From: Granulicatella adiacens ATCC 49175
GTDB lineage: Bacteria > Bacillota > Bacilli > Lactobacillales > Aerococcaceae
Assembly: GCF_025150565.1 (NCBI RefSeq)
Contig: NZ_CP102283.1
Span: forward strand, 558,001-622,000
Direction: 5' to 3'
DNA length: 64,000 nucleotides
Shown: piece by piece, positions 41,510 through 47,558 of the stretch
Numbering within the stretch: position 1 is the stretch's first letter
Layout of the letters: each line of letters opens with the position of its first letter
Program-made: the position numbers and the translations under genes
The notes under the pieces: generated by a model
Told to the model about the DNA's origin: nothing
The model's database searches: none
The model's input: the letters and a program-made list of their open reading frames with translations, nothing else

Positions 41510-41715
41510 TTGATGGGCTTCGGTGCCTATCAAGAAATTCAACCCTATTTGTGCATTGAGTAAGGCACAGTGGTTTATTGACTTTCTTTTCATCACTCGT
41601 GACTCAAGAAAGCCTAATAAACTGTGTGGAAATCGTTCTATTAGGAACGATTTGGAGTTAGATAGAGCAGAATAACCTCACACTGTGAGGTTATTCCTGG
41701 CTTCTGTCTCTCTCC
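41510..41715. other. Noncoding run of four hairpins between prfB and ftsE
   Basis: No gene is seen between 41437 and 41950. Four hairpins follow closely: H1 41510-41533 (TTGATGGGC with GCCTATCAA), H2 41566-41626 (CACAG...TTTATT with AATAAACTGTG, and inner CTTTCTT with AAGAAAG), H3 41630-41653 (AAATCGTTC with GAACGATTT), H4 41654-41715 (GGAG...AGA outer stem and a perfect 12-pair GAATAACCTCAC stem at 41670-41696). The last ends one base before the repeat element at 41717. It does not match tmRNA, RNase P, SRP or T-box signatures. It may be a structured RNA or nested small repeats. Confidence 0.6.
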
Positions 41716-41716
41716 C

Positions 41717-41849
41717 TCGTATCCTGAGTAGTTGAACTCGGGCTCACAGAGCCGACGTCCATTTCAACAAACATCCGCACGACTTGTTCCAAGTCCCTTG
41801 CGGTGTTTGTTTCCAATGATTCGGCTCTGAGCGTTCGCCCTCGTATCCT
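41717..41849 (-). repeat. Structured repeat element, copy B
   Basis: On the minus strand it begins and ends with AGGATACGA and has GAGTTCAACTAC two bases before the second copy. The core reads ACCGCAAG, a hairpin GACTTG-GAA-CAAGTC, then GTGCGGAT. AACAAACA pairs with TGTTTGTT around the core, and AGAGCCGA with TCGGCTCT outside. Copy A at 46709 has the same layout with different helix sequences. It is not coding. Confidence 0.8.
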
Positions 41850-41897
41850 TAATTTAATATTTCTGTAATCTTATGTGAAGGTGTTGTAATATTAGGG

Positions 41898-41906
41898 TGC
41901 TATAAT
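41898..41906 (+). promoter_or_regulatory. Extended -10 for ftsEX
   Basis: TGCTATAAT is a perfect TGn-TATAAT element 44 bases before the ftsE start; the -35 region is poor. Confidence 0.55.
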
Positions 41907-41950
41907 AGTGAAGATTAAAAAAATCGTAGGATTAGAAAGCTGGTGAGTTT

Positions 41951-42637
41951 ATGATTGAAATGATGAATGTAACTAAGAAATATAATAAAGGTATCACTGC
42001 TATTAATAATTTATCCATTCAAATTAAAGATGGAGAATTCGTTTATGTAGTAGGACCTTCTGGTGCAGGGAAATCAACTTTCATTAAAATGATGTATCGT
42101 GAAGAAAAAGCGACAAAGGGTAGAATTCGTGTGGGAAAATATGATTTGATGAAGATTAAAGATCGTCAAATTCCATTCTTACGCCGTTATGTTGGTGTCG
42201 TATTCCAAGATTTTAAACTTTTACAAAATAAAACAGTTTATGAAAATGTGGCTTATGCGATGGAAGTAATTGAAAAATCTCCTCGTGAAATTAAGCGCCG
42301 CGTCGATGAAGTGTTAGAATTAGTAAATTTAAAACACCGTATGAATAACTTCCCAAATGAATTATCTGGTGGGGAACAACAACGTGTAGCGATTGCTCGA
42401 GCAATTGTGAATACTCCGGGAATTTTAATTGCCGATGAGCCTACAGGAAACCTAGATCCGGATACATCTATGGAAATTATGGATATTTTAGAAAGAATTA
42501 ATGAACAAGGAACTACCATTGTGATGGCGACTCATAATAGTCAAATTGTAAACGAGAAAAAACATCGTGTTTTAGCCATTGAAAGTGGACAAATTGTTCG
42601 TGACCAAGAACAGGGGGAATACGGATATGAAGATTAG
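41951..42637 (+). CDS. ftsE: Cell division ATP-binding protein FtsE
   Basis: ATPase of the FtsEX complex, which in Gram-positives activates peptidoglycan hydrolases at the septum or side wall (PcsB- or CwlO-like partners). Length is 228 residues. Walker A is GPSGAGKSTFIK, the signature LSGGEQQR, and Walker B GILIADEPTGNLDPD. The start MIEMMNVTKKYNKG is normal. It overlaps ftsX by 11 bases. No hydrolase gene is adjacent. Confidence 0.96.
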   Translation: MIEMMNVTKKYNKGITAINNLSIQIKDGEFVYVVGPSGAGKSTFIKMMYREEKATKGRIRVGKYDLMKIKDRQIPFLRRYVGVVFQDFKLLQNKTVYENVAYAMEVIEKSPREIKRRVDEVLELVNLKHRMNNFPNELSGGEQQRVAIARAIVNTPGILIADEPTGNLDPDTSMEIMDILERINEQGTTIVMATHNSQIVNEKKHRVLAIESGQIVRDQEQGEYGYED

Positions 42638-43514
42638 AACGATGGGTCGTCATATACGTGACGCCTTCAAGAGTCTTTTCAGAAACGGATTAATGACGTT
42701 TGGTTCGGTTTCTGCGGTATCAATGATTCTTTTAATCGTTGGTGTGTTTGTTTCACTACTATTTAATGTGAACAAAATTGGATCAGATATTGAAAATGAC
42801 GTTAATGTTCGTGTATATATTGATTTGGCAGCAGATCAGGAAAAGACAGATCAATTAGAAGCGAAAATTAAAGAATTGGCGGATGTAGAATCTGTAACAT
42901 TCCGTTCAAAAGATGAAGAATTAGAAGATGTAACAAAGAGCTTTGCTGAAGAATTTTCATTGTTTAAAAATGATGGAAATCCACTTCGTAATGCTTTTGA
43001 CGTAAAAGCAAAAGAACCTCAAAAAACAAGCGCAGTTGCTAAAGCTATCGAAGGAATGGATTACGTAGCTCGTGTTCGTTATGGTGAGGCTCGTGCGGAT
43101 AATTTATTCCGAATTATTGCTACAGCTCGAAATATCGGTGCTGTCATTATTGTGGGGCTATTAGCGTTAGCAATGTTCTTAATTTCTAACACGATTCGCT
43201 CAACAATTTACTCAAGAAGAACTGAAATTGAGATTATGCGCTTAGTAGGAGCTACAAAGGCGTATATTCGCTGGCCTTTCTTCTTAGAAGGTGGGATGAT
43301 TGGATTACTTGGTTCTATTATTCCAATTGGATTAGTGTGGTCAATCTATCTATGGATTTATAAAGGTGGATCAGACTTCTTCTCTGGTTCAAGTTTTAGC
43401 TTACTTGATCCTAATCCATTCTTAATTTATGTCTCATTGGCCATGGCTGCTATCGGTATCACTATCGGAGCTTTTGGGTCTATTCTTTCAATGAGAAGAT
43501 TCCTAAAGAAATAA
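42627..43514 (+). CDS. ftsX: Cell division protein FtsX
   Basis: Membrane partner of FtsE, 295 residues from the ATG at 42627, which has CAGGGGGAAT upstream; longer in-frame reading into ftsE is not the real start. One N-terminal membrane helix with MTFGSVSAVSMILLIVGVF, an extracellular loop of about 110 residues (residues 45-160), and three C-terminal helices with the conserved RRTEIEIMRLVGATKAYIRWPF loop. Confidence 0.96.
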   Translation: MKIRTMGRHIRDAFKSLFRNGLMTFGSVSAVSMILLIVGVFVSLLFNVNKIGSDIENDVNVRVYIDLAADQEKTDQLEAKIKELADVESVTFRSKDEELEDVTKSFAEEFSLFKNDGNPLRNAFDVKAKEPQKTSAVAKAIEGMDYVARVRYGEARADNLFRIIATARNIGAVIIVGLLALAMFLISNTIRSTIYSRRTEIEIMRLVGATKAYIRWPFFLEGGMIGLLGSIIPIGLVWSIYLWIYKGGSDFFSGSSFSLLDPNPFLIYVSLAMAAIGITIGAFGSILSMRRFLKK

Positions 43515-43524
43515 ATCTTAAACT

Positions 43525-43553
43525 AAAGGTGAGCAGAGATGCTCATCTTTTTT
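43525..43553 (+). terminator. Terminator after ftsX
   Basis: AAAGGTGAGCA, loop GAGA, TGCTCATCTTTTTT with one G-T pair. Confidence 0.9.
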
Positions 43554-43621
43554 ATTTTTAATATGCATAATAGTTATAACGAGTTCAAAGAAACTGATAT
43601 ATATAAATAACGCATTTTGCA

Positions 43622-43651
43622 TTGACTCTAAGATAGCTTATCGTATATAGT
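43622..43651 (+). promoter_or_regulatory. Promoter of the met T-box leader
   Basis: -35 TTGACT at 43622-43627 and -10 TATATA (16-base spacer) or TATAGT at 43646-43651 (18-base spacer), just before the leader RNA. Confidence 0.6.
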
Positions 43652-43656
43652 AATTT

Positions 43657-43922
43657 CATCAGATAAAACAATGCAATGAACAGATAAGTAAATAGAGAAG
43701 AATGTGAAAGAGAATCCGGATGGTGAGAAAGGATACAGGGCACTTTATTGAAAATGGTCTGGGAGCAACAAAGGTGATCAAGCTTTTGCGTCTTGTACTC
43801 GATAAAGTACAAAAGTATCTTGCTAATGCAATGTACTTTTTAAGCAGTGAACTGTGAGGTTCATTGGAACTAGAGTGGTAACGCGAAACTTCGCCTCTAA
43901 AATAGGGGAGAAGCTTTTTTTA
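43657..43922 (+). promoter_or_regulatory. T-box riboswitch (probably methionine) for metQNI
   Basis: The T-box sequence AGAGTGGTAACGCG is at 43872-43885, followed by a terminator: CTTCGCCTC with GGGGAGAAG and a T run (43889-43922). Stem I marks are GATAAGTA and GGATGGTGAGA. A likely specifier codon ATG is at 43754-43756 in TTGAAAATGGTCTGG. Uncharged tRNA-Met would stabilise the antiterminator and turn on the transporter. The open frame at 43854-44045 is an artefact of this RNA. Confidence 0.9.
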
Positions 43923-44022
43923 TGGCCCAAAACCAAATCAATCATGCATCCATCTGGTGGAAATCCCGACGCGCGCATGTGGGTTTCCAAAATGAATTAT
44001 GGAATAATAAGGAGAGAAAAAT

Positions 44023-44880
44023 ATGAAATTATCAAAAATCTTTAAAACAGCAACTTTAGGACTTGTAGCTACAGCATTAGTAGCATGCGGAAACAATAAT
44101 TCTCAATCAGGAGAGTCAAAAACAACAACAGCAGAAAAATCAGAAGATAAAAAAATTACGGTAGTTGCTTCACCAGCACCTCATGCTGAAATTTTAGAAG
44201 CTGCAAAACCGATTTTAGCAAAAGAAGGTTATGAATTAGAAATTAATATCGTTAACGACTATGTGACTCCAAATAATATTGTTTATGGTGGAGATGCTGA
44301 TGCAAACTACTTCCAACATACCCCATATCTTGAAAAATTCAACAAAGAACACGGTCAAGACTTAGTATCAGTTGGGAATGTACACATTGAACCAATGGCG
44401 ATTTATTCTAAAAAATACAAATCATTACAAGAATTACCAGAAAATGCTGTAGTTTATGCTTCAACGAATCCTGCTGAAGTAGGACGTTTCTTAAGCTTCT
44501 TTACAAAAGCTGGTTTAATTAAATTAAAAGAGGGTGTTAACCCAGTTACTGCAGGACTAAGTGATATTGCGGAAAATCCAAAAAATATCCAAATTAAAAC
44601 TGAAATTGCTCCTGAATTGCTAGTTTCTACTTATGAAGCAAATGAAGGGGATGCAGTGATTATTAACTCAAACTTTGCGATTGATGCAAAACTTTCACCA
44701 GTTAAAGACTCAATTGCTTTAGAAGATCAAAGTTCTCCATATGCGAACTTAATTGCAGTAAAACCATCAGAAAAAGATAATGCAAAAATTAAAGCATTAA
44801 TTAAAGTGTTACAAAGTGAAGAAATCCGTAAATTTATTAGTGAGAAATATACAGATGGTTCTGTAGTTCCTGCGAAATAA
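44023..44880 (+). CDS. metQ: Methionine-binding lipoprotein MetQ
   Basis: Substrate-binding lipoprotein of the MetNIQ uptake ABC transporter. Length is 285 residues. The signal peptide ends in a lipobox, ALVACG, with the lipidated Cys at about residue 22, then a Ser/Thr/Gly-rich linker. The NLPA family pattern follows: VVASPAPHAEILE, GGDADANYFQHTPYLE, NPAEVGRFLSFF. First structural gene behind the Met-type T-box; a hairpin terminator separates it from metN. Confidence 0.95.
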   Translation: MKLSKIFKTATLGLVATALVACGNNNSQSGESKTTTAEKSEDKKITVVASPAPHAEILEAAKPILAKEGYELEINIVNDYVTPNNIVYGGDADANYFQHTPYLEKFNKEHGQDLVSVGNVHIEPMAIYSKKYKSLQELPENAVVYASTNPAEVGRFLSFFTKAGLIKLKEGVNPVTAGLSDIAENPKNIQIKTEIAPELLVSTYEANEGDAVIINSNFAIDAKLSPVKDSIALEDQSSPYANLIAVKPSEKDNAKIKALIKVLQSEEIRKFISEKYTDGSVVPAK

Positions 44881-44907
44881 TGTGATATACTATTAAACAG
44901 AAACAAG

Positions 44908-44957
44908 AGGAGTGGAAAGCCGTTAAGGGATGTGCCTTGGACTTTCCACTCTTTTTT
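44908..44957 (+). terminator. Intercistronic terminator between metQ and metN
   Basis: GAGTGGAAAG (44910-44919) pairs exactly with CTTTCCACTC (44942-44951), followed by TTTTTT. AGG with CCT can pair inside the loop. It would give more metQ than metN-metI transcript. Confidence 0.85.
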
Positions 44958-44978
44958 AACAGTTGAAGGAGTGAAGAG

Positions 44979-46004
44979 ATGATTAAAGTGGAACACGTGT
45001 CGAAAACTTATAAAGCAAAACAAGGCACGGTTGAGGCAGTCAAAGATGTCTCTTTAGAAATTAGCCGAGGAGAAATTTTTGGGATTATTGGTTTTTCAGG
45101 TGCTGGTAAAAGTACACTTATCCGTTTGTTGAATGGGTTAGAATCAGTTACAAGTGGACAAATTTCTATTAATGGAAAAGACATTACTAAATTAAAACGA
45201 AAAGCTCTTTTAAAAGAACGCCAAAAAATTGCGATGATTTTCCAACATTTTAACCTACTTTGGTCTAGAACCGTGGAAGAAAATATTGCTTTTTCTCTAG
45301 AAATTGCAGGCGTTGCTAAAGATGCCCGTAATCGAAAAGTCAAAGAATTGATTGAATTAGTGGGATTAAGTGGGCGTGAAAAAGCTTATCCTTCAGAATT
45401 ATCCGGGGGACAAAAGCAACGTGTGGGAATCGCTCGTGCACTTGCAAATGATCCGGAAGTATTACTTTGTGATGAAGCAACGAGTGCTTTGGATCCTAAA
45501 ACAACCAAAGATATTCTTAAATTGCTAGTAGAAATCAATGAGAGATTAGGTTTGACAATTGTGTTGATTACACACGAAATGCATGTTGTTCGTCAAATTT
45601 GTCATCGTGTAGCCGTGATGGAAGAAGGTCGAGTGGTTGAGAGTGGGGAGGTTATTGAAGTCTTCAAGAATCCTAAACAACCTATTACAAAACAATTCGT
45701 TGGGGAAGAACGAGTGGAAGATGAAATGGAAGAAGTATTTAGTCACTTAGCGACTTCTCTTCGTCCTGGTGTAGTCGTGCGTATTCAATATTTAGGAGAT
45801 CGAACAGGAGATGCTGTTCTATCCGAGGCGATTCGAAAACTTGATGCGACAGTATCAATTTTACAAGCAAAAGTGAATATAACCCAAAAAGGTGTGCTGG
45901 GTAGTATGATTATTCTAATTGAAGAAAACGAAGAAAAAGCAGAAGCAGTTATTCAATACCTTCAAAAAGCAGAAATTATTGTGGAGGTGTTAGAGAATGT
46001 TTAA
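44979..46004 (+). CDS. metN: Methionine ABC transporter ATPase MetN
   Basis: ATPase of the methionine importer, 341 residues. Walker A is GFSGAGKSTLIR, signature LSGGQKQR, Walker B VLLCDEATSALDPK. The C-terminal NIL domain (about residues 265-341) is present; in MetN it binds methionine and inhibits transport. It overlaps metI by eight bases. Confidence 0.96.
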   Translation: MIKVEHVSKTYKAKQGTVEAVKDVSLEISRGEIFGIIGFSGAGKSTLIRLLNGLESVTSGQISINGKDITKLKRKALLKERQKIAMIFQHFNLLWSRTVEENIAFSLEIAGVAKDARNRKVKELIELVGLSGREKAYPSELSGGQKQRVGIARALANDPEVLLCDEATSALDPKTTKDILKLLVEINERLGLTIVLITHEMHVVRQICHRVAVMEEGRVVESGEVIEVFKNPKQPITKQFVGEERVEDEMEEVFSHLATSLRPGVVVRIQYLGDRTGDAVLSEAIRKLDATVSILQAKVNITQKGVLGSMIILIEENEEKAEAVIQYLQKAEIIVEVLENV

Positions 46005-46710
46005 TGTATTTTTAGCTCAAACGAGTATAGAAGAATTGTTTCAACAAATGTTTTCTTTTGAAAACGTGAATTGGAATGAAGTGATCAAGGCGACTAATGA
46101 AACATTATATATGACCTTTATTCCAACTTTTTATGTTTTTGTCATTGGTTTGCTACTAGGTATTTTGCTATTTTTAACGGGAAAAGGACGTAGTCTCCAA
46201 AATAAGTTTGTTCATTTTATTTTAGGAGGCATTATCAATGTGTTCCGCTCTATTCCGTTTATTATCTTATTAACCTTGCTGATGCCATTTACAAAGGCGA
46301 TTATGACCACCATTATTGGTCCAAAAGGGGCAATTCCAACCTTAGTGATTAGTGCAGCTCCATTCTATGCTCGACTAGTCGATATTGCTTTAAATGAAAT
46401 TCCTTCTGGAGTGATTGAAGCAGCTGAGTCGATGGGGGCGAATACTCGTCAAATTATCACAAAGGTTTTAATTCCAGAATCTTTACCAGCTCTTGTCTCA
46501 GGAATTACGGTAACCGCCATTGCACTTGTAGGTTCTACTGCTGTAGCCGGTGCAATCGGAGCAGGTGGATTAGGAAACCTTGCTTATATGATTGGATTTA
46601 CTAGAAACAAACAAGATATCATTTTTGTAGCAACAGTAGCTATCCTTGTTTTAGTATTCATCATTCAAATTATTGGAGATTTAACCGTCAAAGCAATAGA
46701 TAAACGATAG
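45997..46710 (+). CDS. metI: Methionine ABC transporter permease MetI
   Basis: Permease subunit, 237 residues with five or so membrane helices. The EAA-type loop that contacts MetN is AAESMGANTRQIITKVLIPESLP. The ATG at 45997 lies inside metN. Its stop codon TAG is formed partly by the first bases of the structured repeat element that begins at 46709. Confidence 0.95.
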   Translation: MFNVFLAQTSIEELFQQMFSFENVNWNEVIKATNETLYMTFIPTFYVFVIGLLLGILLFLTGKGRSLQNKFVHFILGGIINVFRSIPFIILLTLLMPFTKAIMTTIIGPKGAIPTLVISAAPFYARLVDIALNEIPSGVIEAAESMGANTRQIITKVLIPESLPALVSGITVTAIALVGSTAVAGAIGAGGLGNLAYMIGFTRNKQDIIFVATVAILVLVFIIQIIGDLTVKAIDKR

Positions 46711-46837
46711 GATACGAGCCATCGCGCCCAGAAATGGAATGTTGGACCGGAATACCGTAAGCGGCTGAGACAGCCGTGCGGATATTTCGGGAAACGCACG
46801 CCATTTCTGCGATGGCGAGTTCAACTACAGGATACGA
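46709..46837 (+). repeat. Structured repeat element, copy A
   Basis: It begins and ends with AGGATACGA, with GAGTTCAACTAC just before the second. Outer stem GCCATCGC (46718-46725) plus AGAAATGG (46730-46737) pairs with CCATTTCT (46801-46808) plus GCGATGGC (46809-46816). The core ACCGTAAG is followed by CGGCTG-AGA-CAGCCG and TGCGGAT. Copy B at 41717-41849 is its homologue in the other orientation. The element abuts metI directly. Confidence 0.82.
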
Positions 46838-47316: not shown

Positions 47317-47345
47317 TTGCTTTACGAGTGTGTTTAGAGTAGGAT
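47317..47345 (+). promoter_or_regulatory. Promoter of the proS T-box leader
   Basis: -35 TTGCTT at 47317-47322, exactly 17 bases, -10 TAGGAT at 47340-47345. Confidence 0.5.
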
Positions 47346-47351
47346 AGGACT

Positions 47352-47558
47352 TGGAAAAGTAAGTGAAATGATGGGTACAGAAAGTTCTGATTGCTGAGAA
47401 AGAACCCCCGCTCTTTAACTGAACCTACCAAACGAAGTGATTATGAAAATAATCCGGTGAAATCATCGTTATCAATGTTAAAGAGACATTTACAAAGTAA
47501 GTGTAATTAAGGTGGTACCGCGAGTCATTCGTCCTTTTTAGGGGAGTGGCTTTTTTTA
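47352..47558 (+). promoter_or_regulatory. T-box riboswitch (proline) for proS
   Basis: The T-box AAGGTGGTACCGCG ends at 47522; AGTCATT and AGTGGCT then form the terminator stem with T7. Upstream stem I marks are AAAAGTAAG and GATTGCTGAGA. The probable specifier is CCT at 47424-47426 in CTGAACCTACC, a proline codon, which agrees with the downstream gene. Confidence 0.92.

Follow-up and report, generated by a model that had tools for sequence, protein, structure and literature searches.

What are the two homologous, folded elements that stand in a 64,000-nt stretch of Granulicatella adiacens ATCC 49175 (contig NZ_CP102283.1, positions 558,001 to 622,000 of the forward strand; hereafter the window)? 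A first-pass annotation had suggested two possibilities: a mobile structured repeat family of the same kind as BOX, RUP and EFAR, or a noncoding RNA present in more than one copy. It assigned no named family and recommended a covariance-model search, a look for empty sites and a comparison with Rfam. With a probability of roughly three in four, we conclude that the two belong to a non-autonomous repeat family of the Lactobacillales, mobile now or in the past and conserved in structure, that includes EFAR as a divergent branch. They probably represent a stop-codon-abutting branch of the EFAR superfamily, strongly structured and with probable mobility. Family members share one fold, are spread over many genera, lie in sense orientation at gene 3' ends, are missing from orthologous sites in relatives and include near-identical dispersed copies. 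The stop-adjoining family is apparently undescribed; its extent and its stop-codon habit are new, while the kind of element is already known.

Both window copies are long hairpins of about 119 nt. Their sequences, coordinates, shared ends and core were checked and agree with the first-pass annotation, as do the three helices that differ between the copies and yet pair in each. Two homologous elements thus exist as described, but the spans of about 130 bp given for them overshoot, the true units measuring 120 and 118 nt. The AGGATACGA that closes each interval is the 5' start of a truncated further unit and not the 3' end of the element, a reading we adopt because tandem arrays elsewhere in the genome display this arrangement directly. 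The parts of the two copies are as follows.

41849 to 41730, minus strand: copy 1, a complete unit of 120 nt, between prfB and the ftsE promoter
41725 to 41717, minus strand: AGGATACGA, the initial 9 nt of a second, truncated unit that follows copy 1, behind the spacer ACTC (41726-41729)
46708 to 46710, plus strand: the stop codon, TAG, that closes the ABC-transporter permease gene lying upstream (45997-46710); the gene gives the T and the first two bases of copy 2 give AG
46709 to 46826, plus strand: copy 2, a complete unit of 118 nt
46718 to 46725, plus strand: 5' arm of helix P1, GCCATCGC, pairing with GCGATGGC (46809-46816); an opposed GA/GA lies on its outer side
46730 to 46737, plus strand: 5' arm of helix P2, AGAAATGG, pairing with CCATTTCT (46801-46808); counterpart in copy 1, AGAGCCGA/TCGGCTCT
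46747 to 46754, plus strand: 5' arm of helix P3, CCGGAATA, pairing with TATTTCGG (46783-46790); counterpart in copy 1, AACAAACA/TGTTTGTT
46762 to 46776, plus strand: apical hairpin of copy 2, CGGCTG-AGA-CAGCCG; in copy 1, GACTTG-GAA-CAAGTC
46829 to 46837, plus strand: AGGATACGA, the initial 9 nt of a second, truncated unit that follows copy 2, behind the spacer AC

The two copies are far from alone. Copy 1 matched 17 places in the 1.965-Mb genome by blastn, and a covariance model seeded with 21 units from this genome recovered 28 units there at E-values of 7e-32 to 8e-9, which is therefore far beyond chance. In the arrays of this genome, tandem units start with AGGATRYGAG, end with GARYTCAACT and are separated by spacers of 2-6 nt. 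The curated covariance models of Rfam gave no match to the family. Tandem arrangement and stop-codon adjacency are the two features that the first-pass annotation missed.

Each unit forms a single long hairpin of about 113-122 nt. From the base to the tip it consists of P0, the opposed GA/GA, P1 of 8 bp, a GTTC-type bulge, P2 of 8 bp, CACT/AGTG, a GGA/GA loop, P3 and the apical hairpin. Among the 21 units of this genome, 25 of the 37 predicted pairs carry double compensatory changes, and in an alignment of 33 diverse units from about a dozen genera, double changes occur at 34 of 36 pairs. Within the latter alignment, 87.6% of cells pair, compared with 59.8 ± 1.0% after shuffling and 34-42% when the pairing is slid by 1-3 columns; the covariation score is 0.71, compared with 0.21 and 0.09-0.18, respectively. 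The covariation noted earlier between the two copies recurs, strongly, across diverse units. Mean column identity is 80% at unpaired positions outside the apical region and 61% in helices. Conservation is highest in the opposed GA/GA that separates P0 from P1, in the four-base GNTN bulge that separates P1 from P2, and in the GGA/GA and ACG loops, so the fold looks like one that is recognised through its loops, with helix sequence left free.

Beyond the host genome, the family was found in 18 of 60 genomes in a search of relatives and in 77 of 395 genomes, covering 29 of 80 genera and several families, in a search across the Lactobacillales. A draw from the class Bacilli gave matches in 3 of 399 genomes, all of them Lactobacillales, and the family seems restricted to this order. 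Copy number peaks at 79, 38 and 37 in genomes G182, G135 and G123 (G and L numbers are our own handles), and within one genus it ranges from 0 (G049 and G056) to 79 (G182). Hosts detected by a pattern scan and confirmed by the model include Trichococcus palustris, Vagococcus fluvialis, Atopococcus tabaci and Aerococcus agrisoli, as well as Jeotgalibaca caeni, Fundicoccus ignavus, Desemzia incerta and Carnobacterium jeotgali. Spread to other phyla was rejected, as the covariance model did not accept the pattern matches found there. The lone match outside the Lactobacillales lies on a 6.6-kb contig titled as a Sporosarcina psychrophila metagenome-assembled genome (L225, 2447-2565, plus strand, 106 bits) and may reflect contamination or horizontal transfer. 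Carriage by phages or plasmids was likewise dismissed: with the G165 form described below as query, which more divergent forms could escape, phage records gave no match, and the plasmid collection yielded a single one, at 70% identity, to an Aerococcus tenax record of 592 kb. In G158, three identical matches with identical flanks (C1 821180, 894303 and 967426; L127, L135 and L142) are spaced by exactly 73,123 bp, which indicates either that a large segment of that genome is duplicated in tandem or that the assembly is at fault.

The position of the units relative to genes was scored over 98 arrays from many genera, considering open reading frames of at least 80 codons with a stop within 200 nt. 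Of the 79 cases in which a sense frame stops inside this distance of the 5' end of the array, 50 have the stop between -4 and +7 nt relative to that end; the commonest offset is -2, at which the gene contributes the T of the stop codon and the element contributes AG or AA. Antisense frames ending within 200 nt of the array's 3' end number 50, none of them nearer than 45 nt. The frames were called mechanically and some arrays share a genome or an orthologous site, so that single cases may be wrong or non-independent; the asymmetry is very large despite these caveats. Stop-adjoining units, which often provide the stop codon, occur in the genus of the window, in Vagococcus, in Aerococcus and in some other lineages. 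An array placed in this way is presumably transcribed as a structured 3' untranslated region (UTR) of the upstream gene.

Empty orthologous sites, the search for which had been recommended, were found at pepC, pta and metI (names here were assigned from translated C-termini rather than from annotation). The end of pepC reads GCG-TAA in G002, GCC-TAA in G001 and GCT-TAA in G004, all of them empty, and GCC-T followed by the unit's AG in the genome of the window. For metI, the permease gene before copy 2, the empty site in G006 reads CGC-TGA and the occupied one CGA-T plus AG; for pta, the empty sites in G001 and G006 end in TAA and the occupied one in AAC-T plus AG. Because the proteins terminate at the same codon with or without the unit, the units entered at the native stop and gave a new one. 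At infB, the native stop AAATAG (G001 and G006) already agrees with the opening bases of the unit, ATAGTG.

Evidence for movement comes from two further genomes. G165 contains twelve full-length copies of 171-173 bp that are 95-100% identical, and G017 contains 39 related places, many near-identical; these dispersed copies argue for recent spread. Near-identical copies and empty orthologous sites together indicate mobility. The proposal of a mobile family had been staked on further copies and on covariation in relatives; copies abound in the host genome, related genera are positive and covariation is strong. In G165 and G017 the element, of about 170 bp, consists of the hairpin, a spacer of about 25 nt and a terminator hairpin. 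Its flanks are inverted copies of each other, such as aaatgacg...cgtcattt (L110) and aagagaaaag...cttttctctt (L115), and these elements therefore occupy a former terminator stem-loop. Some of the 173-bp elements of G165 (C1 2486783-2487007 and 574861-575150) carry extra insertions of about 52-53 nt and about 73 nt at fixed points, after query bases 32 and 78, which suggests modular variants as known for EFAR.

The relation to EFAR itself was examined in genome G295, which we take to be Enterococcus faecalis on the basis of a published ddl primer sequence specific to that species. With filters on, the family model found no match in G295. De novo repeat finding in a 400-kb E. faecalis sample recovered a repeat in which a spacer joins a long hairpin to a terminator hairpin, again with inverted flanks (AAAAACAGGA...TCCTGTTTTT). 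This repeat fits the published Efa-1/EFAR, described as 163 bp long, present in 65 copies and composed of two adjacent stem-loops (PMC2267715). Its hairpin has P1, a GTTT bulge and P2 in common with Vagococcus units, including an identical AGCTCC/GGAGCT. Against shuffled sequences, it matches the intermediates L139 and L119, from other genera, at z = 11 and 8, and in an unfiltered search it scores 18.9 bits against the family model, over the full length and in place. For these reasons EFAR very probably belongs to the same superfamily as a divergent branch; sequence comparison links it to the window copies indirectly, via the intermediates.

The junctions of the arrays suggest how they may grow. 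Spacers are 61% identical to the upstream flank, compared with 44 ± 1.8% when the flanks of different arrays are swapped, and exact spacer-flank matches number 29, compared with 6.6 expected and a maximum of 16 in 2000 shuffles. A truncated next unit closes 57 of the 134 arrays. This fits a model in which new units enter at the 5' junction, each with a short duplication, and the 3' side decays afterwards; tandem duplication of a flank plus unit would look alike.

Several observations weigh against the reading as a mobile repeat family. Copy 1 is exceptional in being antisense, with no codirectional stop codon or gene ahead of it. Classical miniature inverted-repeat transposable elements (MITEs) have terminal inverted repeats and a target-site duplication; the ends of the present units pair (P0), but around single copies there is no clean target-site duplication, and the evidence for such duplication is statistical only. 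No autonomous copy sharing the ends was seen in G165 or G017, the genomes searched for it, and no mobilising enzyme was identified. The Y1 transposase (PF01797) is absent from the copy-rich genomes G000, G024, G165 and G182, and the reverse transcriptase (PF00078) from G000, G014, G024, G123 and G375. Lastly, G.T pairs make up 3.5% of standard pairs, and G.T outnumbers A.C mismatches by 168:73 on an alignment that itself favours G.T. As G.T is rare and its excess is modest under such conditions, RNA and single-strand DNA are not distinguishable.

Mobilisation by a Y1 transposase of the IS200/IS605 or RAYT type, or by a reverse transcriptase, was rejected, each being missing in several copy-rich genomes; either may have acted in the past and been lost later. 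An attC-like integron site was weighed since the units stand behind stop codons, and was discarded: the end motifs are not conserved family-wide, and no search for a link to an integrase was made.

Could the host, rather than the element, be the beneficiary? The units might be 3'-UTR elements that stabilise mRNA, block exonucleases or bind a protein, selected behind stops and spread by duplication or gene conversion instead of their own transposition. The sense orientation beside stops (50/79 compared with 0/50), the covariation with its conserved loops and the retention of arrays at several orthologous genes by G000 as well as by G002 are all as this explanation would have it. However, occurrence is patchy, from 0 to 79 copies inside one genus, truncated and disrupted copies are numerous, the genes concerned differ between species and near-identical copies are dispersed, and we regard a host function of this kind as unlikely. 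Less likely still is that the DNA hairpin alone matters, through replication or cruciform formation as in ERIC- or REP-like repeats, with pairing kept by mutation or gene conversion and the loops unread. It would account for the scarcity of G.T pairs and for the P3-apical block, in which G000 differs as a whole from G002 at one orthologous site, the pattern expected of block conversion; yet the unpaired internal-loop positions are the most conserved, stop-adjoining copies are strictly sense, and P1 and P2, whose arms are non-contiguous, covary too. Copies of a free-standing noncoding RNA gene, the other suggestion of the first-pass annotation, would explain the strong structure and covariation but are very improbable, because most arrays start in tandem within or just past an upstream stop codon, and further because units in the genus of the window lack a constant promoter or terminator and copy number varies strongly among related genomes.

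Under the preferred reading of a mobile or formerly mobile repeat, a trans-acting enzyme would read the folded single strand via its conserved internal loops and insert it at gene 3' ends, where insertion would be tolerated since the protein is unchanged and termination is preserved. Further units would enter on the 5' side, each duplicating 2-6 nt of the flank at the junction, as older 3' units decay, and the array would become part of the structured 3'-UTR transcript of the upstream gene. A bolder version, in which translation termination steers insertion (for example into an mRNA or nascent transcript, at a ribosome-exposed stop), would make this an RNA-level stop-targeting element and unite EFAR, the present family and possibly BOX in one order-wide class; we consider it a long shot.

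EFAR, described in one species, very probably belongs to an order-wide superfamily whose covariation signal is very strong for a small bacterial repeat, and the sense-orientation stop codon offers a sharp, testable target. RNA-seq annotation would gain a missing class of 3' UTR. Furthermore, the comparison of copy-rich with copy-free sister genomes, for which a covariance model is supplied, opens a route to the mobiliser of BOX-, EFAR- and ERIC-type repeats.

The same genome also holds a second repeat family, with hairpins tipped TCACAGTG(T/C)GA inside a longer repeat GACAGAAG...AGTCAATAAACC. It occurs in the window at 41678-41688 (minus strand) and around 41520-41716, and also at the loci L013, L014, L024, L297 and L272; it follows, interrupts or partly replaces the first family, for example within unit L024:1362-1496 and within the pta-locus relic of G002. 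Two T-box leaders lie in the window, at 43667-43901 and 47338-47539 (plus strand); the one upstream of a prolyl-tRNA synthetase gene scores above the gathering threshold, and the one upstream of the lipoprotein/ABC (metQ-like) operon ending at copy 2 scores just under it.

Among known repeats, ERIC (or IRU) of enterobacteria is an imperfect palindrome of about 127 bp in transcribed intergenic regions, comparable in size and setting to the units studied here; its host phylum differs, and we know of no stop-codon register for it. ERIC is classed as a MITE (PMC10969869). The BOX element likewise forms a long hairpin of about this size, in which a 2x2 loop separates the terminal helix from the 8-bp helix that follows; it differs in its modular boxA-B-C assembly. 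Homology to BOX is unsupported, the best match of the unfiltered model reaching 5.6 bits and not lying over the BOX. As 36 BOX copies of Streptococcus pneumoniae encode the stop codon of the upstream gene, the protein not being clearly truncated (PMC3049150), the supply of stop codons is not unique to the present family.

EFAR is the closest parallel, sharing the long hairpin with P1, the GTTT bulge and P2 as well as the location at gene ends; the form in G165 and G017 also shares the second, terminator stem-loop and the insertion into terminator stem-loops. EFAR interrupts a stem-loop and leaves one of its arms on either side, a feature present in G165, G017 and E. faecalis and missing from copies in the genus of the window. 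Those copies instead adjoin stop codons without splitting terminators and build tandem arrays, and the window copies consist of the long hairpin without a second stem-loop, short of the total of about 163-170 bp. EFAR differs further in a longer P2b and in its weak score against the family model (18.9 bits). With neither the second stem-loop nor a terminator as target, the window copies are not EFAR proper. The comparability to EFAR first suggested for them nevertheless extends beyond mere analogy, EFAR being a probable divergent relative.

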